From Lepisosteus oculatus (Eukaryota > Chordata > Actinopteri > Semionotiformes > Lepisosteidae): a stretch of 64,000 nt of DNA. The position numbers and the translations under genes are program-made. The stretch spans positions 4,104,501-4,168,500 of the forward strand of contig NC_090697.1 in NCBI RefSeq assembly GCF_040954835.1. Reading direction: 5' to 3'. Positions 3,157 through 63,944 of the stretch are shown one piece after another. The notes under the pieces were generated by a model. That model saw only the letters and a list, made by a program, of their open reading frames with translations, was not told the DNA's origin and made no database searches. Position 1 is the first letter of the stretch, and each line of letters starts with the position of its first letter.

Positions 3157-4206
3157 ATGGATTACAAACTAGTGAAATTAGATGAGATGCAACATCTTAC
3201 ATCATTAAATTATTGTTATCCACTGTATAATTCATCCTGTTCTAAGGAAGTCCGATCTCCAGCTGTGTATGTGGTGATGTATATTTCTGCAGTGGCAGTG
3301 GTGATGCTGACAGTGTGTGGAAACCTGATGGTGCTTCTTTCTATCTCTCACTTCAAGCAGCTCCACACACCAACCAACCTTCTCCTGCTCTCCCTGACTG
3401 TGGCAGACTTTCTGGTTGGAGTCATGGTGATGCCTTTCTCTTTAATTGAACTAATAGAAACATGTTGGTATTTTGGGGAAACTTTCTGTATACTTTATAA
3501 CATTTTTGTGTGTGTCCTAACTTCAGTATCGATTAGTAATTTAGTATTTATAGCAATAGATCGATATTTTGCAGTATGTGATCCATTGCTTTATTCCACC
3601 AAAATAACTATTAAAATAACATGCTTATTCATACTGTTGAGCTGGTTAATGTCACTCCTGTACAATATAGCACTTATTTATTTTAATGGAAATATGGGCA
3701 AATCTGCAGAACTGAGTGCTTGCCTTGGAGACTGCTTACTTTCAATTAGTGAACATTGGGGCACAGCTGACTTACTGATTACTTTTGTTTCGCCTTGTTC
3801 TATTATGCTAACACTTTACTTAAAAATCTTTATAGTTGCTAGAAAACATGCACAAGCCATTAGCTGTGCTGCAGATCAAATATATTCAACCACTGGGGTC
3901 CAAAGAACAATCCCCAAGAAATCTGAAAGAAAAGCTGCAAAAACATTAGGGATTGTAGTTGGATTTTTTCTGCTCTGCTGGGTCCCATGTTACATCTGTA
4001 CACTTGCAGAAGCAAACATGAATTTGTCATCTTCTTCTGTGCTAATGAATTTCCTCTCTTGGCTAGTGTATTTTAATTCTTTTGTTAACCCTGTTATTTA
4101 CAGTTTACTTTACCCCTGGTTTCAAAAGTCTATGAAACTCATTGTAACTTTTGAGATATGTAGTCCGGCATCTTCTTTGATGAACCTTTTCCCTGAAAAT
4201 CATTAA
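3157..4206 (+). CDS. Trace amine-associated receptor TAAR-1 of this array (clade III type, Val3.32/Asp5.42)
   Basis: Intact single-exon rhodopsin-class GPCR of 349 aa, probably an olfactory amine receptor signalling through Gs/Golf in sensory cilia. Visible landmarks: N-glycosylation site N25-S-S, N1.50 at N56, D2.50 at D84, C3.25 at C111, DRY at 135-137, W4.50 at W163, P5.50 at P213, CWVP at 274-277, and the TAAR fingerprint NSxxNPxxYxxxYxWF at 307-322. Position 3.32, seven residues after C111, is Val118, so the classical amine-binding Asp is missing. Asp205, eight residues before P213, is at 5.42 and is the probable amine anchor. An in-frame GTG lies upstream at 3103, but the first ATG is 3157, with G at +4, and gives a normal-length N-terminus. 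An alternative ATG is at 3187. Confidence 0.93.
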   Translation: MDYKLVKLDEMQHLTSLNYCYPLYNSSCSKEVRSPAVYVVMYISAVAVVMLTVCGNLMVLLSISHFKQLHTPTNLLLLSLTVADFLVGVMVMPFSLIELIETCWYFGETFCILYNIFVCVLTSVSISNLVFIAIDRYFAVCDPLLYSTKITIKITCLFILLSWLMSLLYNIALIYFNGNMGKSAELSACLGDCLLSISEHWGTADLLITFVSPCSIMLTLYLKIFIVARKHAQAISCAADQIYSTTGVQRTIPKKSERKAAKTLGIVVGFFLLCWVPCYICTLAEANMNLSSSSVLMNFLSWLVYFNSFVNPVIYSLLYPWFQKSMKLIVTFEICSPASSLMNLFPENH

Positions 4207-6620
4207 AACATTTGGTCATTTTTCTCTAGTCACAATCTATACTATTAAATTAAAATACTATTTTTTTCCTTTTCCGTTTTTTGTGACTCTCATATTTCAG
4301 AAAACAATACTGTAAAGACAGTTGTTGTAAATCTGTAATTTAGAAAGTAGAATGCAAGTAGGATGAAAGAATGTATTACAAGATATGAAACTATACAGTA
4401 TATCAAATCTCTATGACTGTTGACTACAAAACTTTAAAATCTACTATACAACAAGGAAATGTGAAATATGAAGTACTTTACAAAATCTGAAGTTTGACAT
4501 TGACATCTAATTTAATTGCTGGATGTGAAAGGTTTTGATTAGAAGGTTACATCTAAGTTAAGGTTTGTGTAAAAAGTGGCCCAGCCATGTTAATGAAGCT
4601 GTTATCATGGCTTATTTCAAGAAACTGTTTCAAGAGTTCCTTGAATGAATCATAATACCACATTCATGTGAGTATTATTCCATATAGAATACATTGGTGA
4701 TATAATTCTTATGTAAGACCATTTATAGTAATACAGTATATACTGTATCATTATTTAAACTTAGGTTCTTCAGGAAACCAAAAGGTACTGTATGCTGTGT
4801 TTCTATATACTGTACAGTATATACAGTAGTTATGTATATTGTATGTCAAAGGGAAAACTGTTAAATAACAGGAAATAGCTTTTAAAAAAATGGGATATTA
4901 CTACAACCAAATTTTATAATGTTTCCCCATTGTTTTTTCAAAGTAAATTGTAGGACAGCAGTGATTCACAGCACAGTACAGTGAAGTTTTTTAAAGCAGG
5001 TTTATTCTTATGAAAAGTGACTGCGCGGGAAAGGTTTTCTGTTCCCACCTAGGACCACTGTATTAAGTGCAAACTGAAGCCTGTGATTTCTCACACCCAT
5101 TCAACCAGAGAGAAATGAAACAGATTGTAGGATGCCAAATGGCATCTTCCTGTCCTGTTTTTTTTACTTCTGACACTGCCCCTTTCCCTGTATGTCCCTT
5201 TGATATGTTAAAGTCTTGCCTACTTTTAATGTATAAAAAGGAAAGTGTAACTTCAGTCCAGTGAGTGTGTCTTGAGTGCTAGGGGAAACCCTTTCTCTGT
5301 GATATGCTCCCCTTCAGCTGATTGAATTAAAGATCTCTGTTGACAATCTCCCAACCTGAGTGAAGACTGAGTTTTCTTTGACAGTACAAAATAACTATTG
5401 CACGTGACATCTAAGGCTTACCAGGAATAAGGAATAGCCACTCTGCCACAAGTGAAAGTATTTTCTATGATTCCAATACAATGGTAATGGTCACACATAA
5501 ACCTCCGTTCATGGTGACCTTAACTGAACTGTGCTGTCACTTCTTGCACTCTTAGTCTGTAATTCACAACTTCAAGGAGGAATCTCCAAGAGATCGGTCC
5601 TTATTAGACAGGACAGGAAAATTACACTGAGATACTGGGATTCTCTCCTTGCACTGGTGTCCAGTATCCAATCCTTAAAAACTGCCTGTAGATTTAAGGT
5701 ATGTCAAAACAGTATCTTGAGAGCTTAATTAATTAAACTGGCCTGTTAAAAGCTGAGCTGGAATGGAACCCTGTACACACACACACATTTCTTGACCTGC
5801 TGAAATGTGATTTATAGATACATATTTATCACGATCAACAAAAATACTTTTCCCTTTTCTCTTTCTCCTATTAAATGTACTGTAACTTTCTCTAATCTTT
5901 GTTATTTATTTCTAAAGCTGTCTTACCCAGATGCCCTTGTGTTTAAATTATCTTGAACACTGACAACTACAGTATATTAAGATTTTAGGGTGTTCCTTTT
6001 CATGTCTCTTTCTTTTAAATCTGTAATAAACTTTGTAACAAAGTAAAATTCTGAGTTATACTTGGTGCCAAAAGAACAAATAAAGTTAAAACGTGTTAAA
6101 TATACATACCACATACATTTCTTAAAGGAAAAGGAAATAAAAATGACAATCAAATAGGATCCAGAGTAGTTCATCTACAATCCATGCCCCACTGCATGTG
6201 TCTTGTTGTCTTTCTGATTCTCCAGATGGTGATGGTCACATGACCAAATAACAAAAGGACAGAGTGGGCTTGTAATAAGTGTGCAGGTAAATCCTTTCAT
6301 AACAACTATCAATGTGTTTCTTTTTATTTGTAAAATATATGAATACAATAGAAAATTGATACATTTTGGACAAATGTGTGCAGATAGCAAAAGGTCATGT
6401 CACAAGGGTGATAGGATAGAAAAGGGAATATAAAATGAAAGCTGGAAAAACATGGAAAAACATCAACATGGCTGAGGTGGCTGGCATCCCTTGTGTAACT
6501 AAAGAAGGGAAAACATGTAATTAGTCTTTGAAGTCTCGGTTCAGATTTTTTTAGCTGAAGCAGTTCTATAACCTCTGCTCTAAATCCCATAACAATAGGA
6601 CCCATTTAAATCAATTAACA
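4207..6620. other. Intergenic DNA between TAAR-1 and TAAR-2
   Basis: No gene recognised. The stretch has many short TACTGTA/TACAGTA palindromic words, for example 4733-4750 and 4803-4830. The remainder is AT-rich, with small frames that match nothing I know. Confidence 0.4.
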
Positions 6621-6621
6621 T

Positions 6622-6672
6622 TCATGAGCAGCTCCTAACAACAGGAGGAGCCACTAACAGACCTTAAAATAA
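6622..6672 (+). promoter_or_regulatory. Putative core promoter of TAAR-2
   Basis: TCAT at 6622 begins an element containing AGCTCCT and then CAGGAGGAG, which can pair as a short inverted repeat. It resembles the elements before TAAR-7 and TAAR-8. An A/T box TTAAAATAA begins at 6664, 42 bp downstream, close to the spacing seen for the other genes. Confidence 0.4.
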
Positions 6673-6888
6673 GATAAAAAACAAACACTTTATTCAGCAA
6701 TGTGAGGAAGACAACATACAGTAGCAATGTTATAGTCTTTCTGTCATCTATGGTAGATGGATTTGTTCTGGGGAGCACATACCTTTGTTTACGGGTTAGG
6801 TGATTAGAAAACATTTCTTTCATCTCAGTTAGTCTGAATTTCTTCCTACAAATTTGTGTGAATTTAGCTTTAAACATAATATTGTACA

Positions 6889-7911
6889 ATGGAAGTCACT
6901 CGTTCAGAAGAAACACAATTGGTGCATTTTTGTTTTCCATCTAACAATGCATCTTGTCATAAAGAAATTCGATCTACAGCAGCGTATGTTTCTCTGTACA
7001 CAGTGATGGCTGTGGCTGTTGGACTAACAGTGTGTGGGAATCTGTTGGTGATCATCTCCATCTCTCACTTCAAGCAGCTCCACACACCAACAAACCTGCT
7101 ACTCCTTTCGCTGGCTGTGGCTGACTTTCTAGTAGGAGCGACTGTGATGCCATTAAGTATTACAACCTTAATAGAAACCTGCTGGTACTTTGGGGACATT
7201 CTTTGCTCTTTTTACAAATCACTTGACTGTGTTCTGATTTCAGTTTCTCTTTGTAATCTGGTGTTAATCGCCATAGATCGTTACTTTGCTGTGTGTGACC
7301 CATTCTTTTATTCTACAAAAATAACAGTGAATGTGATGTACTTATTAATATTACTCAGCTGGTTCATATCTCCATTGTATGTGATAATTTTGCTTTATGT
7401 AAATGGCAATTTTAGTGATTCTAAAGCACTAAATCTCTGTCTTGGAGAGTGTGTGTTTATAATGAATGAAACATGGGCAACAATTGATATGGTTACTTCT
7501 TTTATATTGCCTTGCTCTGTTATGACAACTCTATATATAAAGATTTTTATAGTTGCAAAAAGGCATGCAAAAGTAATTAATTCTTTAAAAAATAATAATT
7601 CTAAGAAAGAAAAGATATTATCAAAAACCAACAAAAGAAAAGCTGAAAAGACATTAGGAATTGTAGTGTTTGCCTTTCTTCTTTGTTGGGTGCCATATTA
7701 CATTTGGTCACTAATTATAGAAAAGATTACAATATCCAGATTTATTTCACTTTATTTCCCTTGTGTGTTAGTTTATCTTAACTCTTCTATTAATCCAATT
7801 ATTTATGCTCTGTTTTATCCTTGGTTTCAGAAGTCGGCAAAACTAATATTAACTTTTAAAATATGTTATATAGCATCTTCTTTCAATAGCCTGTTTCCAG
7901 ACAACAAATAA
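6889..7911 (+). CDS. Trace amine-associated receptor TAAR-2 of this array (Asp3.32 plus Asp5.42, diamine-receptor type)
   Basis: Intact single-exon GPCR of 340 aa. Landmarks: N-glycosylation site N20-A-S, N1.50 at N51, D2.50 at D79, C3.25 at C106, DRY at 130-132, ECL2 cysteines C184 and C188, P5.50 at P208, CWVP at 266-269, and a complete TAAR fingerprint at 298-313. It is the only receptor here with acids at both amine-anchoring positions: Asp113 (3.32) and Asp200 (5.42). Zebrafish TAAR13c, the cadaverine receptor, uses this pair to bind the two ends of a diamine, so diamine sensing is a reasonable inference. The usual SERKAAKTLG at the ICL3/TM6 junction is changed to NKRKAEKTLG (249-257 region), and ICL3 is Asn/Lys-rich. 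The start ATG has A at -3 and G at +4. Confidence 0.94.
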   Translation: MEVTRSEETQLVHFCFPSNNASCHKEIRSTAAYVSLYTVMAVAVGLTVCGNLLVIISISHFKQLHTPTNLLLLSLAVADFLVGATVMPLSITTLIETCWYFGDILCSFYKSLDCVLISVSLCNLVLIAIDRYFAVCDPFFYSTKITVNVMYLLILLSWFISPLYVIILLYVNGNFSDSKALNLCLGECVFIMNETWATIDMVTSFILPCSVMTTLYIKIFIVAKRHAKVINSLKNNNSKKEKILSKTNKRKAEKTLGIVVFAFLLCWVPYYIWSLIIEKITISRFISLYFPCVLVYLNSSINPIIYALFYPWFQKSAKLILTFKICYIASSFNSLFPDNK

Positions 7912-8039
7912 AATATGTTTTTAGTGTGTAACAAGTTAGTAATGTATAGTTTATAAATTGTTAGTGTATCACTATTTGTCATAGTTTTTCTAACAGCAGT
8001 AATCTGAAAGAAAAAATCTTCATTTATCAAAACAGAGAA

Positions 8040-8290
8040 TGCTTAGTCCATTGCAATTGGTCTTGGTACTGGTTACATTGATATCCAGACTGAATATCTT
8101 ACAAAGGGCATTGTTGTGTGAAACACCTTGAACAATATAACCAATGTTAACCATGTTCCGCAACATGTTCAGTGCAAAACAATGTTTGTATTCAATGCAA
8201 GGGATCTGCATGTGAATAAGATATTTTAGGTGGTTATGAAGTCAGTTAATATGCTTTTAATAGCTGGGTAAATCTGTATGAAGACAATCA
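8040..8290. repeat. Copy 1 of a direct duplication downstream of TAAR-2
   Basis: Shares several long words with 8690-8940 in the same order and orientation, including GGTACTGGTTA, GTGAAACACCTTGAACAA and GAAGTCAGTTAATAT. The copies are about 645 bp apart and visibly diverged by substitutions and small indels. Confidence 0.6.
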
Positions 8291-16001: not shown

Positions 16002-17490
16002 TGAATGTTATGTCTGTGAGAAAAACCACACTCCCTCCCGATGATCAGGTGCTTTGCCTGTCTGCAGCTGATGTAATGAGGACACTAGCCAAAGTTAATA
16101 AACGTAAGGCTGCTGGACCTGATAATATACCTGGTCACATGCTCAAGGAATGTGCAGAACAGTTAGCTGATGTCCTCACAGATATTTTTAATATCTCCTT
16201 GTGCCAGGCGGTCATCCCCATATACTTCAAATCCACCACTTTTATACCAATGCCGAAGAACTCAGCCGTGTCCTGCCTCAATGACTATCACCCTGTGGCA
16301 CTCACACCAATTATCACGAAGTGCTTCGAGAGACACGAGCCACATCAAGTCCAGTCATGAGCCACATCAAGTCCAGACTCCCTACCCCTCTGGACCCCCT
16401 CCAGTTTGCATAGTGCCCCAACCGGTCTACTGATGATGCCATATCTCTTGCCCTTCACCTTGCCCTGTCCCACCTTGACAAAAAAGACTCTTATGTAAGA
16501 ATGCTTTTCATTGACCAGTTCAGCATTTAATACAATCGTCCCCCAGAAGCTGATAGAAAAATTGAGCTTGCTGAACCTTAACACCTCCCTCTGCAACTGG
16601 ATTCTGGACTTTCTGACCGAGAGACTTTAGACAGTCCTGATCGGTAATAATATCTCCAGCACCATCACAATGAGCACTGGAACCCCCCAGGGCTGTGTGC
16701 TTAGTCCACTGCTGTTCACACTGATGACTTCTACTGCTAAGCATAGTTCAAACTGTGTCATCAAGTTTGCTGTTGACACGACAGTGGTGGGCTTCATTAG
16801 CAACAACGATGAGTCACCATTTAGAGAGGAAGTGGAGCAGCTGATGGACTGGTGCACAAACAACAATCTATCTCTTAATGTAAATAAAACAAAAGAGATA
16901 ATCTTTGACTTCAGGAGGGCCGGCGCTGATCACTCCTGACTGTACATCATCAGCTTCCCTGTGGAGACAGTTAGATCATCAAGTTTCTTGGTGTACACAT
17001 TACAGATGACCTCACTTGGTCCCTCAATACCACCTCCCTAGCCAAGAAAGCACAGCAACGTCTCTATTTCCTGTGGTGACTGAGGAAGGCAAACCTTCCT
17101 CCGCCCATTCTTACCACTTTCTACAGAGGCACCATTGAGAGCCCCTTGACCAGCTGGATCACTTTTTGGTTTGGGAATTGAAACGCTTCAGACCACAAGA
17201 CCCTGCAACGAATTGTGGAAACAGCTGAAAACATCATTCGAGCCTCCCTCCCTTCCATTTCTGTCACCTATCACAAACACTTCATAAACAGGGCCTTCAG
17301 TATAGTAAAATAACTCTTCCACCCCTCCCATAAACTCTGCCCTCCTACAATCTAGAAAAAGATATCGCAGTGTACGAGCTTGTTCCACCAGACTCTGTAA
17401 CAGCTTTTTCCCGCAGGCTGTCAGGCTCCTCAACACCCTGGAATCTACTTGTACCCACTGCAATTCCAGAAACAATTCCGTGAACTTGAA
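16002..17490 (+). mobile_element. 5'-truncated, decayed L2/Rex-type LINE
   Basis: Pieces of a reverse transcriptase follow in order: [20 protein letters not shown] near 16100, [12 protein letters not shown] near 16280, the QGCVLSPLLFTL block near 16690, KFAVDTTVVGF near 16770, NNLSLNVNKTKEII near 16870, and the LINE C-terminal region to about 17480. The catalytic FADD box reads FAVD, and several frameshifts and stops separate the pieces. CTTAA at 15997-16001 and 17491-17495 is consistent with a target-site duplication, although the GAACTT-type tail makes the right edge ambiguous. Confidence 0.75.
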
Positions 17491-19295: not shown

Positions 19296-20324
19296 ATGGA
19301 ATTAACTGAACTTGAACCTCAAACAGTGCAATATTGTTTTCCATCTAAAAATGGATCTTGTACCAAAGAACTTCGGTCCACGGCTGTTTCTGTCATTCTT
19401 TATGTGTCTATGTTTGCTGTGGTAATTCTGACACTGTGTGGAAACCTGATTGTGATCATTTCCATCTCACACTTAAAGCAGCTACACACACCAACTAACC
19501 TGCTGGTGTTGTCCTTGGCTGTGGCTGATCTTCTAGTAGGGGTGTTTGTGATGCCTTTTGATATGGTGAAATTAATAGAATCATGTTGGGTTTTTGGTAA
19601 TTTATTTTGCTCTTTTCGTAATGTATTTGGATTTCTTCTAACTTCAGTCTCAATCAGTAGCTTAATATTTATAGCCATTGATCGCTATTTTGCTGTATTT
19701 TACCCATTTCTTTATTCTTCTAAAATAACACTTAATATAGCATTGTTCTGCATAGTACTTAGCTGGCTTTCATCCCTGTGTTATAATTTGTCACTCTTTT
19801 ATTTTAATGGAAATAGTAATGATGAAAACCTGAATACCTGTCTTGGAGACTGTTTCATGTTAATCAATTCAACCTGGGGAATAATTGATCTGCTTGTTAC
19901 GTTTATTTTGCCTTGTTCTGTTATGATAATATTGTATGCAAAGATCTTTGTAGCTGCTAAAAAGCAAGCACATGCAATCAATTCTATAACAAATCAAATT
20001 ACATTTTCAAATGAAACCAACAGAAAAACATCCCAAAAGTCTGAGTGGAAAGCCGCAAAAACTTTAGGAATTGTAGTATCTGTCTTCCTGTTTTGTTGGA
20101 TACCTTACTATATTTTCATTGTCATTGATGGCTACACAACCTTCTCTGTTCCTCTTATAGTTTCCAATTCTTTGACTTGGCTGGTTTATTGTAACTCTTG
20201 CATAAATCCCATAATTTATGCTTTTTTTTATCCCTGGTTTCAGAAGTCCACTAAGCTCATTTTAACTTTCCGGATATGTAATTCAGGTTCATCATTCAAT
20301 AGGTTGTTTCCAGACTGTCTCTGA
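19296..20324 (+). CDS. Trace amine-associated receptor TAAR-3 of this array (clade III type, Gly3.32/Asp5.42)
   Basis: Intact single-exon GPCR of 342 aa. Landmarks: N50 (1.50), D78 (2.50), C105 (3.25), DRY at 129-131, ECL2 cysteines C182 and C186, P206 (5.50), CWIP at 267-270, and a full TAAR fingerprint at 300-315. Position 3.32 is Gly112, so the aminergic Asp is lost; Asp198 is at 5.42. The residues after DRYFAV are FYP instead of CDP, and the usual SERKAAK motif is SEWKAAK (239-245), both shared with TAAR-6. The codon before the ATG at 19296 is TTG, so the ATG is taken as the start. TAAR-6 has an equivalent ATG, its fifteenth base, supporting the same N-terminus. TAAR-6 is its closest paralogue in the window. 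Confidence 0.94.
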   Translation: MELTELEPQTVQYCFPSKNGSCTKELRSTAVSVILYVSMFAVVILTLCGNLIVIISISHLKQLHTPTNLLVLSLAVADLLVGVFVMPFDMVKLIESCWVFGNLFCSFRNVFGFLLTSVSISSLIFIAIDRYFAVFYPFLYSSKITLNIALFCIVLSWLSSLCYNLSLFYFNGNSNDENLNTCLGDCFMLINSTWGIIDLLVTFILPCSVMIILYAKIFVAAKKQAHAINSITNQITFSNETNRKTSQKSEWKAAKTLGIVVSVFLFCWIPYYIFIVIDGYTTFSVPLIVSNSLTWLVYCNSCINPIIYAFFYPWFQKSTKLILTFRICNSGSSFNRLFPDCL

Positions 20325-26365: not shown

Positions 26366-27394
26366 ATGGATTTCACATTAATGGACCTCCAGGAACATGA
26401 GACACTACAGTACTGTCTTCCTTCTGGTAATGGATCTTGTCCAAAAGAAGTACGACAAAAAACAACCTATGTAACGCTATACTTCTTGTTGGTGACTGTG
26501 GTGCTAATTACAGTTTGTGGGAACTTAGCAGTGATCATTTCCATTTCACATTTCAAGAAGCTTCACACACCAACTAACCTCCTCGTGCTTTCACTTGCTT
26601 TTACAGATCTTAGTGTTGGTGTTTTTACAATGCCTTTAACCTTAATTAAAATAATTGAATCTTGCTGGTATTTTGGGGATATCATCTGCTTTGCTTATGT
26701 ATTAGTCAGTTATTTGTTAATAACATTGTCTGTTACTCATTTAATTTTCATTGCTATTGATCGTTATTTTGCCATATGTGATCCATTACTTTATTCGGTT
26801 AAAATTACAGTTCCTGTCACATTCTTTTTCATTGTCATAGTGTGGATACTTTCAATACTGTATATTTTCATACTAGTCTCCTGCAATGGATATATCAGTG
26901 GTGTAAAAATGTCTGTATCTTGCACAGAGGACTGCAATTACACACTGGGTGTAACCTGGTGGGCTATAGATGCTGCAGTTATATTTTTCCTTCCATGTTC
27001 AGTAATGGTAGGTCTTTATGGAAAAATATTTGTAGTTGCTAGAAGACATGCACTAGTAATACGCTCAGTGATCAACACATGCACTACCGAAGAAAGCAAA
27101 AAAACCATACCTAAAAAATCTGAAAGAAAAGCTGCAAAAACGTTAGGCATTGTAATCACTTTTTTCACGCTGTGCTACTTACCAACCTATTTAAGCAGTA
27201 TACTTCAGGCAAGCAATTCTTTTTTGACACCTTCCAGTGTAATGCAGGTTATTACATGGATAACAGTTTTTAACTCTGGCATTAATCCGATTATTTATGC
27301 TCTGTTTTTCCCTTGGTTTAAAAAGTCATTAAAACTTATTATTACATTAAAGATATGTGATAGGTCATCTTCTCTGATTAACATATATTCTTAG
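26366..27394 (+). CDS. Trace amine-associated receptor TAAR-4 of this array (divergent clade III type, Ser3.32/Asp5.42, Tyr6.48)
   Basis: Intact single-exon GPCR of 342 aa, the most divergent of the eight. Landmarks: N53 (1.50), D81 (2.50, in LAFTD instead of the usual LAVAD), C108 (3.25), DRY at 132-134, ECL2 cysteines C186 and C190, P210 (5.50). Position 3.32 is Ser115 and Asp202 is at 5.42. Two family-defining residues are changed: the TM6 toggle CWxP reads CYLP (270-273), with Tyr271 for Trp6.48, and the TAAR fingerprint at 303-318 has Phe315 for the last Tyr. The frame is open and the motifs are otherwise kept, so it looks functional. It may have altered activation or be an early stage of decay. 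A second ATG at 26381 is possible. Confidence 0.9.
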   Translation: MDFTLMDLQEHETLQYCLPSGNGSCPKEVRQKTTYVTLYFLLVTVVLITVCGNLAVIISISHFKKLHTPTNLLVLSLAFTDLSVGVFTMPLTLIKIIESCWYFGDIICFAYVLVSYLLITLSVTHLIFIAIDRYFAICDPLLYSVKITVPVTFFFIVIVWILSILYIFILVSCNGYISGVKMSVSCTEDCNYTLGVTWWAIDAAVIFFLPCSVMVGLYGKIFVVARRHALVIRSVINTCTTEESKKTIPKKSERKAAKTLGIVITFFTLCYLPTYLSSILQASNSFLTPSSVMQVITWITVFNSGINPIIYALFFPWFKKSLKLIITLKICDRSSSLINIYS

Positions 27395-28242: not shown

Positions 28243-28890
28243 CACTTTCAAGTTCAAGTTCACATTTATTTGTCATTTCAGTCATATAGAAGTATGCAGT
28301 GAAACCAAATATCATTCCTCCTAGTCCACGGTGCAAATACAGGCAGGACAGACAGGACACTGACATAGACATTGTAGACAGGATACACATAGTGCAAAGA
28401 GCAGTTAGTGCAAATTACAAGGTAAATACATAATACAATATACACAATACACTGGGGGGATTTAAGCCCTGTTTCTGGAATTGGGGTGGGTGCAATAGAT
28501 TCCAGGGTGTTGAGGAGCCTGACAGCCTGCAGGAAGAAGCTATTACAGTGTCTGGTGGAGCTAGCCAGTACACTGCGATATCTTTTCCCAGATGGTAGGA
28601 GGGCCAAGAGTTTATGGGAGGGGTGGGAGGTGTCATCTACAATACTGGAGGCCCTGCGTATGCAGTGTTAGTGATAATGACAGAAATGGAAGGGAGGAAG
28701 GCTCCAATGATCTTTTCAGCTGTTTCCACAATTCGTTGCAGGGTCTTGCGGTCTGAAGCGTTGCAATTCCCAAACCAAACAGTGATGCAGCTGGTCAAGG
28801 TGCTCTCAATGGTGCTTCTGTAGAAAGTGGTAAGAATGGGCGGGGGAAGGTTTGCCCTCCTCAGTTACCGCAGGAAATAGAGCAATAGAG
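28243..28890 (-). mobile_element. 3' end of an L2/Rex-type LINE (minus strand)
   Basis: The minus strand carries the end of a LINE reverse transcriptase (LLPSGKRYRSVLASSTR, then FFLQAVRLLNTLES), a 3' untranslated part and a tail of repeated GAACTT. Its upstream part is homologous to 17100-17470 of the LINE at 16002, so both belong to one subfamily. The 5' portion is missing. Confidence 0.75.
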
Positions 28891-34804: not shown

Positions 34805-35839
34805 ATGGACTTCAATGAACATCAAGAAAATCGGACAATACAGTACTGTTTCCATTCTGGCAATACATCATGCTTAAAAAAGGTCCGACCTACAGCAGTT
34901 AATGTCATCCTGTACTTTTTTCTGCTCGCAGTTGTATTTCTGACAGTGTGTGGAAATTTGTTGGTGATCATTTCTATCTCTCACTTCAAACAGCTCCACA
35001 CACCAACCAACCTCCTTGTGCTCTCCTTGGCTGTTGCAGACTTTCTAATAGGAGTGACTGTGATGCCTTTTACAATGATTCAATCAGTAGAATCTTGCTG
35101 GTATTTTGGAGATACGTTCTGTACTCTGTATTCCGTATTAATTCTCTTGCTTACCTCTGTTTCTGTTAGTAGCTTAGTATTCATTGCTATTGACCGTTTC
35201 TTTGCTGTGTGTGACCCTCTGCTTTACTCTACTAAAATAACTGTAAATGTTATATATTTAGTCATATCACTTAGCTGGTTCTTATCACTATTGTATGCAC
35301 TCTCAATTATTTATTCCAAAGGAAATATTGATGGTGATGAAGCCTTAGATACCTGCCAGGGAGATTGCCTGTTTACATTTAATGCAACCTGGGGACTAAT
35401 TGATCTTGTGATGACATTTCTTTTGCCTAGTACTTTCATGATAACTCTTTATGCTAAAATTTTCATTGTTGCAAAAAGGCACGCAAGAGTAATCAGTTCT
35501 GCTTCAGCGCAAGTTACTTCTGGAGATAGAAGCAAAAGTAAAACATCAAATATATCAGAAAGAAAAGCTGCAAAAACCTTAGGACTTGTACTATTAGTTT
35601 TTCTTCTTTGCTGGATACCATACCATTTATGCACGATCATTGACTCATACATTAATTTTTCTGTGCCTTCAGATGTTATTAATACTCTTGCGTGGCTTGT
35701 ATACATTAACTCTTCCATAAATCCTCTCATTTATGCTTTGTTTTATCCCTGGTTTCAGAAGTCAGTGAAACTAATAATAACATTTAGAATATGTTATACT
35801 GCATCTTCATTGATTAATTTGTATCCAGAAAATGTTTAA
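34805..35839 (+). CDS. Trace amine-associated receptor TAAR-5 of this array (clade III type, Ile3.32/Asp5.42, DRF motif)
   Basis: Intact single-exon GPCR of 344 aa. Landmarks: N-glycosylation site N20-T-S, N51 (1.50), D79 (2.50), C106 (3.25), ECL2 cysteines C184 and C188, P208 (5.50), CWIP at 269-272, full TAAR fingerprint at 302-317. Ile113 occupies 3.32 and Asp200 occupies 5.42. The DRY motif is DRF (130-132), a conservative change tolerated in some GPCRs. The preferred start, 34805, has G at -3 and G at +4 and gives MDFNEH, like the other family starts. An upstream in-frame ATG at 34784 has a weak context and would add seven residues. A polyadenylation signal AATAAA follows at 35857-35862. 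Confidence 0.94.
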   Translation: MDFNEHQENRTIQYCFHSGNTSCLKKVRPTAVNVILYFFLLAVVFLTVCGNLLVIISISHFKQLHTPTNLLVLSLAVADFLIGVTVMPFTMIQSVESCWYFGDTFCTLYSVLILLLTSVSVSSLVFIAIDRFFAVCDPLLYSTKITVNVIYLVISLSWFLSLLYALSIIYSKGNIDGDEALDTCQGDCLFTFNATWGLIDLVMTFLLPSTFMITLYAKIFIVAKRHARVISSASAQVTSGDRSKSKTSNISERKAAKTLGLVLLVFLLCWIPYHLCTIIDSYINFSVPSDVINTLAWLVYINSSINPLIYALFYPWFQKSVKLIITFRICYTASSLINLYPENV

Positions 35840-45737: not shown

Positions 45738-46772
45738 ATGGAATCCAACTTGATGGAATTAACTGAATCTCAAACCGTCCAATATTGTTTTCCAACTATA
45801 AATGGATCTTGCACCAAAGAACTTCGGTCCACAGCTGTTTCTGTCATTTTTTATGTGTCTATGTTTGCTGTGGTAATTCTGACACTGTGTGGAAACCTGA
45901 TTGTGATCATTTCCATCACTCACTTCAAGCAACTACACACACCGACTAACATGCTGGTGTTGTCCTTGGCTGTGGCTGATCTTCTAGTAGGGGTGTTTGT
46001 GATGCCTTTTGATATGGTGAAATTAATAGAATCTTGTTGGTATTTTGGAAGTTTTATTTGCTCTTTTCGTACTGCATTCAGTTTCTGCCTAACATCAGTT
46101 TCAATCAGTAGCTTAATATTTATAGCCATTGATCGCTATTTTGCTGTATTCAACCCATTTCTTTACTCCACTAAAATTACACTTAATATAGCATTGTTCT
46201 GCATAGTACTTAGCTGGCTTTCATCACTGTGTTATAATTTGTCACTCTTTTTCTTCAATGGCAATAACGATAGTGAAAAACTAAATGCCTGCTTTGGAGA
46301 TTGTTTCATTTTAATCAATGCAACCTGGGGAATAATTGATCTGCTTGTTACATTTATTATCCCTTGTTGTGTTATGATAATATTGTATGCAAGGATATTT
46401 TTAGTTGCTAAAAAGCAAGCACAAGCAATAAATTCTATAACAAATCAAATAACATTTACAAATGGAATCAACAGAATTTCCAAAAAATCTGAATGGAAAG
46501 CTGCAAAAACTTTAGGAATTGTAGTATTTGTCTTCCTGTTTTGTTGGATACCTTACTATGTTTTCATTGTCATTGATGGATTCGCAACCTTTACTGTTCC
46601 TCTTATAGTCTCTAATTCTCTGACTTGGCTGGTTTATTGTAACTCTTGCATAAACCCCATAATCTATGCTTTTTTTTATCCTTGGTTTCAGAAGTCCACA
46701 AGACTCATTTTAACATTTCAAATATGTAGTTCAGGTTCATCTTTGAATAGCTTGATCACTGAGAAACTCTGA
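45738..46772 (+). CDS. Trace amine-associated receptor TAAR-6 of this array (clade III type, Ser3.32/Asp5.42)
   Basis: Intact single-exon GPCR of 344 aa, closest to TAAR-3. Landmarks: N53 (1.50), D81 (2.50), C108 (3.25), DRY at 132-134, ECL2 cysteines C185 and C189, P209 (5.50), CWIP at 269-272, full TAAR fingerprint at 302-317. Position 3.32 is Ser115 and Asp201 is at 5.42. It shares with TAAR-3 the FxP after DRYFAV (FNP) and SEWKAAK in place of SERKAAK. The first ATG is given; a second at 45753 aligns with the start of TAAR-3 and may be the ancestral one. The pair is not adjacent, so TAAR-4 and TAAR-5 lie inside or were moved into the duplicated interval. Confidence 0.94.
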   Translation: MESNLMELTESQTVQYCFPTINGSCTKELRSTAVSVIFYVSMFAVVILTLCGNLIVIISITHFKQLHTPTNMLVLSLAVADLLVGVFVMPFDMVKLIESCWYFGSFICSFRTAFSFCLTSVSISSLIFIAIDRYFAVFNPFLYSTKITLNIALFCIVLSWLSSLCYNLSLFFFNGNNDSEKLNACFGDCFILINATWGIIDLLVTFIIPCCVMIILYARIFLVAKKQAQAINSITNQITFTNGINRISKKSEWKAAKTLGIVVFVFLFCWIPYYVFIVIDGFATFTVPLIVSNSLTWLVYCNSCINPIIYAFFYPWFQKSTRLILTFQICSSGSSLNSLITEKL

Positions 46773-53850: not shown

Positions 53851-54573
53851 TCAGGTTTACTTTTCAAAACAGCTAGAATATCAAGGAAACAATAAAAAGC
53901 ATAATGATGTTCATTGTTAGTAGTGCTTGGTATTTTTAGGACTATAGCAGAGAGGTTCCAATTCATTTTTGTTTGGTTTTAATAGAAAAGTATGTGAAAT
54001 ACAGATTGTGTTACAAAATCTTGGTACAAAAATTTACACAAGAAAGAAGTGCATTACGTTTGTATAGGAATTTTGGTAACAAGGGTCACCTATGAGACAT
54101 TACTTTATCAACTATAATGTATATACTGTGCTTTTGTTCTTTATAGAGGAAGAATTAGAGTCTAGATCTAAATGTTTTCTTCCAATGCAATTTTTTAAAA
54201 AGTAATCACAGGCCTACCATTTGTCTTTTTGTTGTTACTATAAGGACTTGACATAAAAGCAGTAATACATTTAAGGGTTTGTCGTATGATATGAATATTT
54301 GTTATCTGTTCTTTTTAATTTTTTTATTTATTTTATTTATTATTTTTTTTTAATTTCTGATCTTACTTTCTGTTAAAGGCTATTTTTAGTGTAAAAAGAT
54401 CTAGCGACCTTTGTTTAATCCATTAAGATTTAATATGTTAAACATTATTTTTCCTTCAAAAATATTTAATTCGTATTTTCAAAGCTTACTCAATCAGATT
54501 TAACTGTTCTCTAGGCTCTGTTCAGACATGTAGCACATTGGGTGTCATTCACAGATTTCTCACCAATGAAGAG

Positions 54574-54625
54574 TCATCATCTCCTCCTTACAGCAGGAGT
54601 AGGAGGGGGCAGAGACCTATTAATG
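54574..54625 (+). promoter_or_regulatory. Putative core promoter of TAAR-7
   Basis: TCATCATCTCC at 54574, CAGCAGGAGTAGGAGG and an A/T box TATTAATG at 54618-54625, 44 bp after the first base and 206 bp before the ATG. Nearly identical to the region before TAAR-8 and similar in layout to TAAR-2, -3 and -6. The A/T box is a poor TATA match. Confidence 0.4.
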
Positions 54626-54823
54626 TACACAAGATTAGGAGTAAAAATCAAACTCCTTGAACACTTTGAGATATTCCTAAATACCTTGATTGTTTTGTAC
54701 TCCTTCCTATGCCTTTTTGCTCTGTGTATTGAATACGTTTATGGATAAAATTAACAAAAAGGCAAAACGTTTTCTTTCTACAATTTGTTGTGGATTTAAC
54801 TTTCAACAGATTTTTCCAGTCCA

Positions 54824-55873
54824 ATGGAAATCGCTAATTCAGAAGAACCTCAGGCTGTGCAGTATTGTTTTCCTTCGAGCAATGCATCTTGTCTAAAAGA
54901 AATGCGACCTAAAGCAGCTTATGCTGCTTTATACACGGTGCTGGTAATGACGGTTACCCTAACTGTGTGTGGAAACCTTGTTGTGATTATCTCCGTCTCT
55001 CATTTCAAGCAGCTCCACACACCAACTAACCTCATTCTGCTCTCTCTGGCTGTGGCAGACTTTCTAGTAGGACTGATTGTGTTGCCTTTAAGTATGACAG
55101 CTTTAATAGAAACTTGTTGGTACTTTGGAGATATGCTGTGTTCTGTTTATAAGTTTTTTGACTCTGTTCTTATATCAGTTTCTCTCAGTAATCTGGTTTT
55201 AATAGCCATTGACCGCTATTTTGCTGTTTGTGACCCATTACTTTATTCTACTAAGATAACAGTTAATGTCATGCATTTATTAATACTATTTAGCTGGCTG
55301 TTATCACCATCTTACATGTTGGCTTTTCTTTATCTAAATGGAAATTTTGATGGTGCAGATAAGCTAAATTCCTGTCTTGGAGAATGTTTGTTTGTAGTTA
55401 GTGAAATATGGGGAATAATTAATCTGATAATTACTTTCATTTTGCCTTGTTTAATAATGATAGCTCTATATGTGAAAATTTTTTTAGTAGCCAGAAGACA
55501 TGCAAAAGTAATCAGCTCTTCAGCCGAAAAAAAGCATGTGCGAGAAAACACAGGTAAAATTTCCAAAATATCGGAAAGAAAAGCTGCCAAAAAATTAGGA
55601 ATTGTAGTGCTTGCCTTTCTTCTTTGTTGGATTCCATGTTACATCTGGATACTCACTGAAGGAAATGTTAATGTATCTACGACAGCGGCTCTCTTCACTC
55701 CTACTGTAATAGTTTATCTTAACTCCTGTGTCAATCCAATTCTCTATGCCTTACTATATCCTTGGTTTCAGAAGTCATTGAAACTTATATTCACGTTTAA
55801 AATATGTTGTACAGCCTCCTCGTTTATAAATCTTTTTCAAGACAAGCATGAAAATGTCATGTATGTTGGATAG
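54824..55873 (+). CDS. Trace amine-associated receptor TAAR-7 of this array (classical Asp3.32, Asn5.42)
   Basis: Intact single-exon GPCR of 349 aa. Landmarks: N-glycosylation site N20-A-S, N51 (1.50), D79 (2.50), C106 (3.25), DRY at 130-132, ECL2 cysteines C184 and C188, P208 (5.50), CWIP at 268-271, full TAAR fingerprint at 300-315. Asp113 is the classical amine-binding residue at 3.32; position 5.42 is Asn200. The motif before TM6 is SERKAAKKLG. A recent duplicate of TAAR-8; the shared sequence extends to at least 900 bp upstream. Its C-terminus is seven residues longer because the TAA that ends TAAR-8 is GAA here, with the next in-frame stop following. The start is conserved in both copies (CCAATGG). 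Confidence 0.95.
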   Translation: MEIANSEEPQAVQYCFPSSNASCLKEMRPKAAYAALYTVLVMTVTLTVCGNLVVIISVSHFKQLHTPTNLILLSLAVADFLVGLIVLPLSMTALIETCWYFGDMLCSVYKFFDSVLISVSLSNLVLIAIDRYFAVCDPLLYSTKITVNVMHLLILFSWLLSPSYMLAFLYLNGNFDGADKLNSCLGECLFVVSEIWGIINLIITFILPCLIMIALYVKIFLVARRHAKVISSSAEKKHVRENTGKISKISERKAAKKLGIVVLAFLLCWIPCYIWILTEGNVNVSTTAALFTPTVIVYLNSCVNPILYALLYPWFQKSLKLIFTFKICCTASSFINLFQDKHENVMYVG

Positions 55874-57475: not shown

Positions 57476-57479
57476 TGCC

Positions 57480-58814: not shown

Positions 58815-60009
58815 GTAATATTAATATCGATAACCACCTTTTTCAACAGCATATTCTTTGAGTAGAAAAACTACCATAGTTAAAAAGCATTTTAACTATC
58901 CTAATGTCACCCACGCTCGTGGTCAGCATATGATATACTAATGATGTCATGCTAGCATCATGATAACAAAGTAATGTGTGTGCTATGCTTCCAGTCTGTC
59001 ATAGTGCTTTCATTCGATACATTCTTCTAAAAAAACACAGGAATGCCTGTATGCGCTACAGAATGTTGGGGCCACAATAATATTTTTTTGGTAAGGTAAA
59101 CACCCTGCGACAATTCAAGCTAAATGCACTTTAAGAACATTTTTTCTGATGTTTAATATATGTTGTGAATTTTTCATATATACAAAAAACTACTTTTCAC
59201 ACACATTTTAATATTTTCAAAATAAAATATGAACAAAAGAAACCTAATTTTATCTTCCCTGTGTCAGTGTATGTAGCTGTTGCGCAGCACACATGATGTG
59301 TACAGTACATCCAATTTTTACATTTTAAGAGTAACTTAGTTTTTACACATAGATCTCTAGCCTTTACATAAAACTAGCACTTTCATATACAAATGGTAAA
59401 ATACAGATTATTCTTACTAAGTTTTCTGTTTAATTTGTTGACTAGCTACAATGTAAAACAACTGTGTGTCTTATCAGTGCAGAGGTGCCTGTTCAGATTG
59501 TGCTTGGTCTGTTGATTTTTTTATATTACGATGTTGCATTCTGTTTCTTTAATTTCATCTGTGAAAACATTGGCAAATCACCCCAAACAAAATACAATTT
59601 CAAAATGCAAGCCGTTTGAAATTATTAGTTGTTATTAATAAATTAATATTGTTAATAATTACCAGATATATTATTATAGTTCAGTTTCAACAGTCTTTTT
59701 AATACCGTTTTGTTATTCTTGATTATAATTATAATATATACGATTTTGTTTAAAGGTTTGTCTTTAAATGCCCCACTTGAATGAATAAGGTATTTTGAAT
59801 TGACTTGAATTAAACCGGTTTGATCTATTTTGTTCTCCCAATGGTGACAATATACACATTTGTCCATTTATGTTGTTGATCTTATTTAATTTTAAACACA
59901 TTGTGATATTTAGAAATACCAGAAAATTCAATACTTTGTCCATAATATTTACTATTTTAGTAAGTTGTAATAAATGCTTATTTGTTAAAGGAGAGCTCAT
60001 GTCGTGAGC
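58815..60009. other. AT-rich intergenic DNA
   Basis: No gene or known repeat recognised. Confidence 0.3.
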
Positions 60010-60530
60010 AGGATTGGAACCCCAGCTTTCAGAATGTGAGTTATGCTTAGCTATAGCCGAAAAGGGCAGGCAAAATGTTTCCAAAGTAATCACAAGTGAA
60101 TGAGTCAAATTGATGCAGATGTTTACAAAGAAAGTGGACTATGGTAGTATTTTGAGCTATATAAATATATTGTATTTAGATCCGTAAATTAATGTTGTTA
60201 TTAATTTATTTAGATACACGATTCCATGTTATATTCCCTACTAAGCGGATTCTAAAAAGTACATAGTGTTTTACTGCGATAACAAGCACAAGTATTCATA
60301 GAAAATTTTTAAAATTTAAAAATGTATAGCTTTTTGACAATATAAACTTAATATTGTCAGAACAAACACCTGAAAGCTTTCCCAAAATAACCACAGTACC
60401 ATAGGAAACTGAGTGAAAGACTTTGAAGCATAAAATATTTATGAAGTGGGATACTGTTGTGTATTTTTTTATTGAAACTACCACTACCAGTCATATACAG
60501 TTTGTATAATATATTTATATTCCCAAGTTA
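60010..60530. repeat. Fragment of the mosaic dispersed repeat family
   Basis: 60040-60300 is an inverted homologue of 37040-37340 (TTTGCCTGCCCTTTTC, then GGGAATATAA on the minus strand). 60340-60500 is a direct homologue of 12225-12400 and 51880-51920 (AATATTGTCAGAACAA, CTTTCCCAAAATAACCAC, TGTGTATTTTTTTATTG). Confidence 0.55.
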
Positions 60531-60539
60531 ATATCATTA

Positions 60540-61120
60540 ATGACCCCCAAACACCCCCTGTTGCAACAAGTCCAGCCCTCAGGATGCAGTCCTCTTTTTT
60601 GGAGGCGAGATAACAGGTGTGGGGCACTGTTGCAGTTCCCAGACGGATGGAAAGTGTCTTTTGTCTGGACGGCAGCGAGCTGACTAGTGACCATCCGTAA
60701 GCACAGATCGGTGCCCTCCCATCCTCGGGAGCTGGCTCCCTCGGCACCCAGAAGGACACCAGATGAACCGGTGTCGATCAAGGCCAGGCATGGTTGTTCC
60801 TCAATCCGACACGGAGGGTACAGGCTCTGGCTATGGCCGATCCTCCGCACAGTGGATTGTGGGGCACAAATCTCCACAGTGCCTCCTGACACCTTCGTCG
60901 GTGTGTGGGGATCCGGAGGCTGGCAGTCCCGAGTGCGGTGTGCTCTCGTCCCACAGCGGCGGCAGATGCGCTTGCGACAGCGCAAGCCATCTCCTCCTCC
61001 TCACTCGACTCATCCGTCGCAGTCTTGGCAACCTGGCACGGAGCACTCCTCCTGCTGGAGCTGCCAGCCTCCCCAAACGTGACCTCAGCACGTGTGGCGA
61101 GAGCCAAGGCCTGCTCAAGG
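60540..61120 (-). mobile_element. LTR-retroelement fragment: nucleocapsid zinc knuckle to protease
   Basis: On the minus strand there is a CCHC zinc knuckle (spacing C-x2-C-x4-H-x4-C) near 60970-60930, followed by an aspartic-protease active site, LIDTGSS, near 60770. This order is that of gag to pol in Gypsy-like LTR retroelements. It is a short broken fragment with no LTR, RT or integrase seen, joined directly to a LINE on its right. Confidence 0.65.
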
Positions 61121-61790
61121 GAGCCTTACAGTCGTGGGTGTAGAGGGAGTGGAGTAATGGACTAAGCACCCCTGGGGGACCCCAGTGTCCAGAGTTAGTG
61201 TGCAGAAGGTGTGGTTTCCAAGCCTAACAGCCTGAGGTCTGCCTGTCAGAAAGTCTTGAATCCAGTTGCAGAGGGTGGTGTTGAGACCCAGTGCACTGAG
61301 TTTCTTGATTAGTTTCTCTGGAATGATAGGGTTAAAAGCTGAGCTGAAGTCGATGAATAGTAGCCTTGCGTATGTTTTCTTTTTATCCAGATGAGATAGG
61401 GCAGTGTGTATGGCAAAAGAGAATGCATCATCTGTGGATCTGTGGTGCTGGTAGGCAAATTGGTATGGGTCCAGTGTGTTTGGAATGGTGTCCTTAATGT
61501 GCTTCATGACCAGCCTCTTGAAGCACTTCACAATGACAGGTGTTAGTGCCACCAGTTGGTAGTCATTAAGACATGTCAGTGTGGTTTTCTTTGGGATGAT
61601 GGTGGTTGTCTTGAAGCAGGTGGGGACTACGGCTTGGGCCAGAGACATGTTGAAAATGTCTGTGAATACACCCGCCAGTTGATAAGCGCAGGCTCTGAGG
61701 ACGCGACTGGGTATGCCGTCAGGTCCTGCAGCCTTGCATGTGTTCACTTTTAGCAGAGATCTCACCTCATCTGCAGACAGTGAGATTTAA
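61121..61790 (-). mobile_element. LINE reverse transcriptase fragment (L2/Rex type, minus strand)
   Basis: An open frame of 216 codons (61765 to 61115) carries the N-terminal half of the [75 protein letters not shown] and DTGVPQGC, continuing after a frameshift as [13 protein letters not shown]. The catalytic FADD region and everything after it are replaced by the LTR-type fragment at 60540-61120. Confidence 0.85.
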
Positions 61791-61799
61791 CATATTGTC

Positions 61800-61920
61800 A
61801 TACAAAAATAATATAGCTCACGTAGGTAGCTGTGTTAGCATGCGTAAGATGCAAAGAAACAAGTAAAAGATTTATTCCATGCTGAAAAGAGAAGAAAAGA
61901 AACAAAGTTTCAACTCCATG
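61800..61920 (-). repeat. Fragment of the mosaic dispersed repeat family
   Basis: On the minus strand: TTTTCAGCATGGAATAAATC, TTTTACTTGTTTCTTTGCA. It matches 57545-57590. Confidence 0.5.
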
Positions 61921-61929
61921 ATTACGATT

Positions 61930-62663
61930 CTATATTAATATTCCATATTAAGTTGATTTAAAGAAGTACTACAACAGATTCAATGATGCTGATGTTTTCA
62001 ATAAGATCTAACGCACCTAAAGTACCACCTATCGATCTTCTTTGGCCAGTGAAGATTCTTTAGGCAGTGTGGTGAAGTCATTTTGATGCCGTAATGAGTT
62101 TTGTGGCACAATCTGGGTGACTGCATCTGTGCATAATGACTTGTAGTGTAAAATAATTTGAGCACTCTAAATTCGATGCAATCAAAAAACAACTTTCATG
62201 TTAATGTTTTAAAGGTTCTAAAATATCAAGGATAGAAAAAATAATTTCCCTTTTTAGCATTTTTAAGAGCCAAAGTAGAGAGATTCTGATTCATTTTCTA
62301 ATAGAAATTTATGTGAAATGCAGATTAAGTCAGGTAATTTAAAAATTACACAAGAATGAAGTACTTTACATTCATACCAAAATACATTTACTAGTGAAAT
62401 TTCAGTCACAAGGGCCACCTATGAGTATATACTGTATTTGATGTGCTTCTATTCTTTCCACAGGAGGAAAAGGAATCTAGATATACAATCTGAAAAAGAA
62501 AGTAACAGCTTCTGTAAGAGGCTGTTTTTCAAACTTTTAAATTTAATTAAATGCTTAATGTTATTTTTCTTCAGAAAGACTTAATTAGCATTTTCAAAGT
62601 TTAGTAAACAAGATATATCTGTTCTCCAAGCTCCATTAAGACAGATTTCTCACCAATGAAGAG
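61930..62663. other. Intergenic DNA duplicated upstream of TAAR-8
   Basis: From about 62260 onwards it is homologous to the DNA upstream of TAAR-7 from about 53930, with substitutions and indels. It carries no gene. Confidence 0.55.
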
Positions 62664-62715
62664 TCATCAGCTCCTCCTTACAGCAGGAGTAGGAGGAGGC
62701 AGAGACCTATTAATG
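62664..62715 (+). promoter_or_regulatory. Putative core promoter of TAAR-8
   Basis: TCATCAGCTCCTCC at 62664, CAGCAGGAGTAGGAGG and TATTAATG at 62708-62715; the 44-bp spacing is the same as for TAAR-7. The A/T box is 208 bp before the ATG. Confidence 0.4.
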
Positions 62716-62915
62716 TACACAAGATTAGGAGTAAAAATCAAACTCCTTGAACACTTTGAGATATTCCTAAATACCCTGATTATTTTGTAATCCTTCCTAT
62801 GCCTTTTTGCTTTGTGTATTGAATACATTTATGGACAAAGTTAACAAAAAGGCAAAACGTTTTCTGTCTACAATTTGTTGTGTGGATTTAACTTTCAACA
62901 GATTTTTCCAGTCCA

Positions 62916-63944
62916 ATGGAAATCGCTAATTCAGAAGAACCTCAGGCTGTGCAGTATTGTTTTCCTTCAAGCAATGCATCTTGTCTAAAAGAAATGCGAT
63001 CTAAAGCAGCTTATGCTGCTTTATACACGGTGCTGGTAATTATGGTTACCCTAACGGTGTGTGGAAACCTTGTTGTGATTATCTCCGTCTCTCATTTCAA
63101 GCAGCTCCACACACCAACTAACCTCATTCTGCTCTCTCTGGCTGTGGCAGACTTTCTAATAGGACTGATTGTGTTGCCTTTAAGTATGACAGCTTTAATA
63201 GAAACTTGTTGGTACTTTGGAGATATGCTGTGTTCTGTTTATAAGTTTTTTGACTCTGTTCTTGTATCAGTTTCTTCTTGTAATCTGGTTTTAATAGCCA
63301 TTGACCGCTATTTTGCTGTTTGTGACCCATTACTTTATTCTACTAAGATAACAGTTAATGTCATGCATTTATTAATACTATTTAGCTGGCTTTTATCACC
63401 ATCTTACATGTTGGCTTTCCTCTACCTAAATGGAAATTTTGATGATGGAGAAAAGCTAAATTCCTGTCTTGGAGAGTGTTCATTTGTAGTTACTGACCTT
63501 TGGGGAATAAGTAATCTGATATTTACTGTTATTTTTCCTTGTTTTATAATGATAGCCCTGTATGTTAAAATTTTTTTAGTAGCCAAAAGACATGCAAAAA
63601 TAATCAATTCATCAGTAGGAAGAGAGCACATGAAAGGAAACTCAAGTGAAATTTCCAAAAGTTCAGAAAGAAAAGCTGCCAAAAAGTTAGGAATTGTAGT
63701 GCTTGCCTTTCTTCTTTGTTGGATTCCATGTTACATTTGGATACTCATTGCAGGAAGTGTTAATGTATCTACGACAGCGGCTCTCTTCACTCCTTCTGTA
63801 ATAGTTTATCTTAACTCCTGTGTCAATCCAATTCTCTATGCCTTACTTTATCCTTGGTTTCAGAAGTCATTGAAACTCATATTCACATTTAAAATATGTT
63901 ATGTAGCATCTTCTTTTATAAATTTGTTTAAAGACAAGCATTAA
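62916..63944 (+). CDS. Trace amine-associated receptor TAAR-8 of this array (classical Asp3.32, Asn5.42)
   Basis: Intact single-exon GPCR of 342 aa. Landmarks as in TAAR-7: N51, D79, C106, D113 (3.32), DRY at 130-132, C184 and C188, N200 (5.42), P208 (5.50), CWIP at 268-271, TAAR fingerprint at 300-315. Against TAAR-7 I count 7 differences in residues 1-176, 26 in 177-249 and 7 in 250-342. The central segment covers the end of ECL2, TM5 and ICL3. The binding-site Asp and Asn are the same, but TM5 residues 199, 203, 205 and 207 differ, so the two may prefer different amines. About 55 bp of downstream sequence are in the window, so its 3' end is not seen. Confidence 0.95.
   Translation: MEIANSEEPQAVQYCFPSSNASCLKEMRSKAAYAALYTVLVIMVTLTVCGNLVVIISVSHFKQLHTPTNLILLSLAVADFLIGLIVLPLSMTALIETCWYFGDMLCSVYKFFDSVLVSVSSCNLVLIAIDRYFAVCDPLLYSTKITVNVMHLLILFSWLLSPSYMLAFLYLNGNFDDGEKLNSCLGECSFVVTDLWGISNLIFTVIFPCFIMIALYVKIFLVAKRHAKIINSSVGREHMKGNSSEISKSSERKAAKKLGIVVLAFLLCWIPCYIWILIAGSVNVSTTAALFTPSVIVYLNSCVNPILYALLYPWFQKSLKLIFTFKICYVASSFINLFKDKH

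Follow-up and report, generated by a model that had tools for sequence, protein, structure and literature searches.

Has the amine-binding site of the trace amine-associated receptors (TAARs) changed in one direction only? When the amine anchor moved from helix III (Asp3.32) to helix V (Asp5.42), this receptor family acquired another means of holding ligands of one kind, a change that has so far been told as a one-way, two-step story. We examined this question in a 64,000-nucleotide stretch of the genome of the spotted gar Lepisosteus oculatus (C2:4104501-4168500, C2 being contig NC_090697.1; hereafter the window), whose eight TAAR genes (T1–T8; L numbers denote other stretches) carry all three pocket states: Asp3.32-only, both Asp, and Asp5.42-only. 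Li 2015 (PMC4695389) already described the three states, as well as the two-step model and the two-Asp receptors TAAR14c/d, and the new part is the tree. Sequence comparison indicates that the Asp3.32-only receptors T7 and T8 are probably secondary and not ancestral, in an Asp3.32-bearing branch that lies inside genes without Asp3.32. A full round trip within one array is a reading we hold tentatively, giving it nearly but not quite an even chance: from Asp3.32-only to two Asp to Asp5.42-only, after which Asp3.32 would have been regained beside Asp5.42 in T2 and its kin, and Asp5.42 would then have been lost in T7, T8 and L038, restoring a one-Asp classical pocket by another route. If this is true, change through the two-Asp pocket can go in either direction.

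The window holds eight intact single-exon TAAR genes, all on the + strand and open throughout in a survey of open reading frames (ORFs):

3157..4206, + strand: T1, TAAR of the Asp5.42 clade; Val3.32 codon 3508-3510, Asp5.42 codon 3769-3771
6889..7911, + strand: T2, TAAR of the nested Asp3.32-bearing branch; Asp3.32 codon 7225-7227, Asp5.42 codon 7486-7488
19296..20324, + strand: T3, TAAR; Gly3.32 codon 19629-19631, Asp5.42 codon 19887-19889
26366..27394, + strand: T4, divergent TAAR, earliest offshoot of the 47-gene clade described below; Ser3.32 codon 26708-26710, Asp5.42 codon 26969-26971
34805..35839, + strand: T5, TAAR; Ile3.32 codon 35141-35143, Asp5.42 codon 35402-35404
45753..46772, + strand: T6, TAAR, sister of T3; Ser3.32 codon 46080-46082, Asp5.42 codon 46338-46340 (an in-frame ATG at 45738, 15 bases upstream, is also a possible start)
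54824..55873, + strand: T7, TAAR, probably secondarily Asp3.32-only; Asp3.32 codon 55160-55162, Asn5.42 codon 55421-55423 (AAT)
62916..63944, + strand: T8, TAAR, duplicate of T7 (88% protein identity); Asp3.32 codon 63252-63254, Asn5.42 codon 63513-63515 (AAT)

An earlier note, made from the letters alone, had called these genes TAARs, and this was borne out. Pfam 7tm_1 matched all eight (E 2e-46 or better), and the TAAR fingerprint of transmembrane helix 7 (TM7), which we take to be NSxxNPxx[YH]xxx[YF]xWF, is present in every window gene and in 73 of 83 alignment rows; the rows without a full match are eight genes of a Leu-rich subclade (small changes), the truncated L046 and the outgroup L087. 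The closest solved structures to T2 and T5, the two window genes searched, are TAAR13 (solved as 9m0x, 9m2s, 9m3s and 9m40), TAAR9, TAAR7f and TAAR1. The segments C3.25–R3.50 and W5.38–P5.50 contain no gaps in any of the eight and have the length found in zebrafish TAAR13a/c/d/e, with W5.38–P5.50 comprising 13 residues throughout. The phmmer alignment of T5 with TAAR13c is gap-free around D112 and D202, which are residues 3.32 and 5.42 in Li 2015. Misplacement of Asp at 5.42 is ruled out by the gap-free count, which puts the residue, by sequence, where the earlier note had it, and the eight 3.32/5.42 pairs given there (V/D, D/D, G/D, S/D, I/D, S/D, D/N and D/N from T1 to T8) all agree with the codon coordinates and with the alignment to TAAR13. 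Six of the eight genes carry Asp5.42, T7 and T8 having Asn, and both Asp residues occur in T2 only. Pairwise dN/dS (the ratio of nonsynonymous to synonymous substitution rates) was below 1 in the ten pairs computed (0.22-0.60; T7–T8 0.43, T3–T6 0.31, T2–T7 0.31), which fits genes under constraint. A tblastn search with these eight genes (E 0.001) found no further TAAR fragments in the window.

TAAR matches are spread over C2:3.72-4.60 Mb, a cluster of ~875 kb. Eighty stretches were fetched, of which nine were dropped as fragments of <310 amino acids (L017, L039, L042, L047, L049, L052, L053, L058 and L085), together with L080 (disrupted) and L088 (another receptor), and L087 was retained as outgroup. 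The gene set comprises 76 TAAR ORFs of at least 310 amino acids, measured stop to stop, 68 outside the window and eight inside. The genome search scored 118 of 889 and 118 of 852 candidates; the cluster counts are lower bounds. Among these at least 76 genes, 29 are Asp3.32-only, seven carry both Asp, 38 are Asp5.42-only and two have neither. Along the chromosome, the Asp3.32-only block comes first, followed by the two-Asp genes L035 and L036 some 65-72 kb ahead of the window start, then by a mixed stretch that includes the window, and then by genes that are nearly all Asp5.42-only. All three states occur together in 90 of the 813 64-kb windows taken at 1-kb steps along the cluster, which makes the mix characteristic of the cluster region around the transition rather than a chance property of a single window.

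A maximum-likelihood protein tree (LG+C20, columns 3.32 and 5.42 excluded) was built from 83 rows, namely the 76 cluster genes, L087, four zebrafish TAAR13 sequences, and mouse TAAR9 and TAAR7f. A second tree used another alignment with LG+G4 and kept both site columns; the truncated ORFs L022 and L046 were excluded from this tree alone. The outgroup L087, from contig C1, is presumably a TARL gene, a label that is our own. In the protein tree, a 53-row clade with zebrafish TAAR13 (support 100/98) contains all eight window genes, which by sequence belong to the Asp5.42 clade, on the TAAR13/clade III side. Within it, L035 is sister to the zebrafish TAAR13 genes (100/98), and L036, which is Asp/Asp, is sister to a 47-gene clade (90/86) that is itself supported at 100/99. 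T4 splits first from this clade, leaving a 46-row branch (88/92), and T5 with T3/T6 splits next (pairing 80/48), leaving a 43-row branch (98/94) with 20 genes in a subclade that includes T1, 14 in a Leu3.32-rich subclade and nine in a further branch (100/97). The nine are L046, L054, T2, L048 and L044 (Asp/Asp), L040 (Ala/Asp), and L038, T7 and T8 (Asp/Asn). This Asp3.32-bearing branch is nested among genes without Asp3.32. A DNA tree gives the same nesting of the nine, with the Leu subclade at 96/94, and leaves open the branching order of L035 and L036 and the placement of T3/T6.

Several expectations of the earlier note held in these trees. The Asp5.42-only genes do fall in one large clade beside TAAR13, in a tree without teleost clade III sequences, and the two-step model's prediction of two-Asp genes at its edge is matched by L035 and L036, both Asp/Asp and just outside the clade in the protein tree (their order is open in the DNA tree). 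Its interpretation stood only in part. T2 sits in the same nested branch as T7 and T8 and is not established as a relic intermediate, and the idea that residue 3.32 became free to change was overstated: T3 and T6 are close sisters (85% identity), and members of a subclade often share their replacement (in one subclade, 10 of the 14 genes have Leu).

T7, T8 and L038 form one clade in 1000 of 1000 bootstraps. Codon 5.42 is AAT in these three genes and GAT (five) or GAC (one) in the six others of the branch, most simply explained by a single derived loss of Asp5.42 through one G-to-A change. Since this clade lies within an Asp5.42-bearing branch, the Asp3.32-only state of T7 and T8 is probably secondary. 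Neither gene groups with clade I in the protein, DNA or alternative tree; both sit in the Asp5.42 clade. T7 and T8 belong to a duplicated block (54551-55873 and 62641-63964, 93% over 1.33 kb) that reaches ~270 bases upstream of the start codons, and between them, at 61115-61783 on the - strand, lies a reverse transcriptase fragment (RVT_1, E 4.5e-18) that we read as LINE-like (long interspersed nuclear element).

The nesting was challenged by forcing into one clade the 38 genes of the 47-gene clade that are without Asp3.32, with L040 excluded and L075 included (the 38 Asp5.42-only genes are a different set, with L040 in and L075 out). This arrangement was rejected by the approximately unbiased (AU) test with protein (p 0.00056) and with DNA (p 0.0034), gave p 0.0006 in the alternative-alignment tree, and appeared in none of 1000 protein bootstraps. 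As a separate candidate, T7 and T8 as ancestral classical genes were rejected by the constraint tests with protein, DNA and the alternative alignment.

A number of points weigh against our reading of the tree and of the site. Support for the immediate sister group of the nine is soft (93/79 in the protein tree). T4 has a long branch, and once it and L056 are removed the rejection weakens (AU p 0.027). In the same reduced set, a tree that unites the T1 and Leu subclades to the exclusion of the nine withstands the test (p 0.175). The 38 genes were chosen after a quick first tree had been viewed, so the p values are somewhat optimistic. The root depends on one long outgroup, L087. The tree covers no teleost clade III genes (TAAR14-20), and the zebrafish TAAR14c/d receptors, also two-Asp (Li 2015), might reveal an older retained lineage. 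For the regain itself, the gain in log-likelihood (lnL) is under 4, which does not prove it, and the two-state fit behind this figure merges all non-Asp residues and applies one rate to all branches.

Given the nested placement, how did the branch come by its Asp3.32? We lean, if only slightly, towards a single loss at the base of the clade followed by regain in the T2/T7/T8 branch, a reversal of the two-step switch. It is also quite possible, and to us a little less likely, that the backbone and the T2/T7/T8 branch never gave up Asp3.32, which instead disappeared in parallel from T4, T5/T3/T6, the T1 subclade and the Leu subclade; neither account is taken as shown. Such retention rivals the regain step only: it would make T2 a survivor of the two-Asp stage and would leave T7 and T8 secondary. 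A functional residue is more easily lost than exactly regained, the replacements differ among the deep branches (Ser; Ile; Gly/Ser; Val and others; Leu and others), and zebrafish TAAR14c/d kept both Asp (Li 2015), all of which favours retention; the losses it needs, not counting L040 and L011, number three in three, four in 818 and five in 179 of 1000 bootstrap trees. On the best tree, however, it requires six losses (T4, T5/T3/T6, the T1 subclade, the Leu subclade, L040 and the distant L011), as against four changes with regain, L040 and L011 being counted in both. A reversible model of the trait reached lnL -18.06 / -17.82 (protein / DNA tree) and a loss-only model -21.72 / -21.65, which is 3.7-3.8 units worse, a lead that shrinks to ~0.9-1.1 when the gain/loss ratio is forced to 0.01. 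Taken as trait fits only, and within the limits noted above, the two-state reconstructions put the probability that Asp3.32 was present at 0.96-0.97 where L036 joins the 47-gene clade, at 0.08-0.09 for that clade's own base and at 0.89-0.94 for the base of the nine. In addition, T is the middle base of the 3.32 codon in 25 of the 38 genes tested, among them T5, the whole Leu subclade (14 of 14) and half of the T1 subclade (10 of 20), the trace that one shared Asp-to-Val step would leave. Other pocket residues differ with the state of 3.32: Tyr7.43 is found in 35 of the 36 genes with Asp3.32 (truncated L046, the exception, is gapped at this site) versus 23 of the 40 without Asp3.32, and Trp6.48 in 34 of 36 versus 15 of 40, the 40 being 39 genes of the 47-gene clade plus L011. 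For their co-change with Asp3.32 the tree offers only four independent pairs, a number too small for a test.

Gene conversion from a two-Asp paralogue, bringing Asp3.32 into the T2/T7/T8 branch and mimicking a point regain, would be possible among tandem paralogues on one chromosome, and the nine do share their cluster with L035 and L036. We regard it as very unlikely, as trees of the N half, the C half and TM2–TM4 each place the nine beside the Leu subclade (sister support weak, at 93/62, 80/37 and 58/74, respectively), with the 38 genes as one clade in 0 of 1000 bootstraps of each. No converted tract was found at the scale of the halves or of TM2–TM4, a scale at which a tract of a few codons would be invisible. 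The earlier note's own view, that T7/T8 (classical), T2 (intermediate) and the remainder (non-classical) are stages of the two-step model preserved side by side, draws on the presence of the three states in the window and on the order of the whole cluster, roughly Asp3.32-only, two-Asp, mixed and Asp5.42-only. We give it hardly any credence: T7 and T8 lie inside the Asp5.42 clade in every tree built and descend from Asp5.42-bearing receptors, a position of the Asp3.32-bearing branch outside the genes without Asp3.32 is the rejected placement, and the positions expected of relics are held by L035 and L036, outside the window.

The binding modes suggested by the pocket residues rest on analogy with zebrafish. 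According to Li 2015, the Asp5.42-only receptors TAAR16c and TAAR16f require Asp5.42, mutation of either Asp in the tested two-Asp receptors abolishes or weakens responses to dications, and D202A turns TAAR13c into a monoamine receptor. By analogy with TAAR16, T1 and T3–T6 are predicted to be helix V monoamine receptors acting through Asp5.42; T2, by analogy with TAAR13 and TAAR14d, would be a diamine receptor in which Asp3.32 and Asp5.42 grip both ends. T7 and T8, in which Asp5.42 is replaced by Asn, would be helix III monoamine receptors acting through Asp3.32, a prediction that is only likely since detection of diamines without Asp5.42 has been reported for TARLL3h and TAAR9 (Guo 2022, PMC8890504). 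The close paralogues T7/T8 and T2, and L040 and L044, offer ready natural variants for testing.

These genes resemble known receptors to differing degrees. T2, like zebrafish TAAR13a/c/d/e and TAAR14c/d, has both Asp and aligns to TAAR13 without a gap; it branches apart from TAAR13, inside genes without Asp3.32, whereas L035 of the same cluster is the sister of the zebrafish TAAR13 genes. T1 and T3–T6 resemble zebrafish TAAR16c/e/f of teleost clade III in having Asp5.42 and lacking Asp3.32, but the host differs from those of teleost clade III: a HOX-13 homeodomain search gave four strong matches (85-97% identity) on four contigs, each near further homeobox matches, indicating four Hox clusters and therefore no teleost genome duplication. 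T7 and T8 are like the clade I receptors TAAR10 and TAAR12 in having Asp3.32 and no Asp5.42, and unlike them in carrying Asn5.42 and descending from the Asp5.42 clade.

By the figures of Li 2015, Asp3.32 is absent from 85 of 87 zebrafish clade III genes, and both Asp occur in seven zebrafish TAARs, namely five TAAR13 receptors plus TAAR14c/d. Provided that TAAR14c/d account for the remaining two of the 87, zebrafish would have no clade III gene that is Asp3.32-only. The word 're-gained' refers in that paper to the serotonin response of TAAR10a and not to a residue. Non-teleost clade III is not new, since Guo 2022 placed spotted gar TAARSG2-6 and coelacanth TAARC3 in this clade; that paper also describes how clade II, with Asp5.43, lost a single residue of TM5, and discusses different routes by which Asp5.42 may have arisen. 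Dieris 2021 (PMC8032801) traces class III to a duplication of TAAR13 within ray-finned fish and gives three taar12, one taar13 and one other class II gene for spotted gar. Among the TAAR literature matches listed, neither 'Asn5.42' nor 'N5.42' occurs, nor does 'regain' or 'reversion'; 'regain' appears once in a paper on fish odorant receptors (PMC8661438). The gar genes in the supplement of Guo 2022 may already show Asp/Asn.

Some further observations concern individual genes of the cluster. In the first, classical block, L011 (C2:3747000-3748250) has neither Asp (Gly3.32/Ser5.42) and is otherwise open; the cluster genes that we took as clade Ia/Ib have Ser, Cys, Ala, Gly or Val at 5.42. Six genes (L028, L029, L031, L033, L034 and L056; C2:3.959-4.325 Mb) group with mouse TAAR9/TAAR7f in the protein tree (85/92) and are sister to the Asp5.42 clade in the DNA tree (95/87), which has no mammals. 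Their TM5 is one residue shorter, which puts their Asp at 5.43 and not 5.42, and on sequence they probably represent clade II in fish, sharing the Asp5.43 that mammalian TAAR6/8 are known to have. One of them, L031 (C2:3992510-3993760), has Gln for Arg3.50 of the DRY motif in a receptor that is otherwise open. L075 (C2:4498170-4499430), of the T1 subclade, has a one-residue TM5 deletion of its own, so its Asp counts as 5.43 and, with Gly3.32, it has neither anchor by count. In the window, a tRNA scan found none, and a tandem repeat scan returned 17 rows, none bearing on the pocket question. An inverted repeat pair (17062-17474 and 28470-28882, 89% over 416 bases) flanks T3 and T4.

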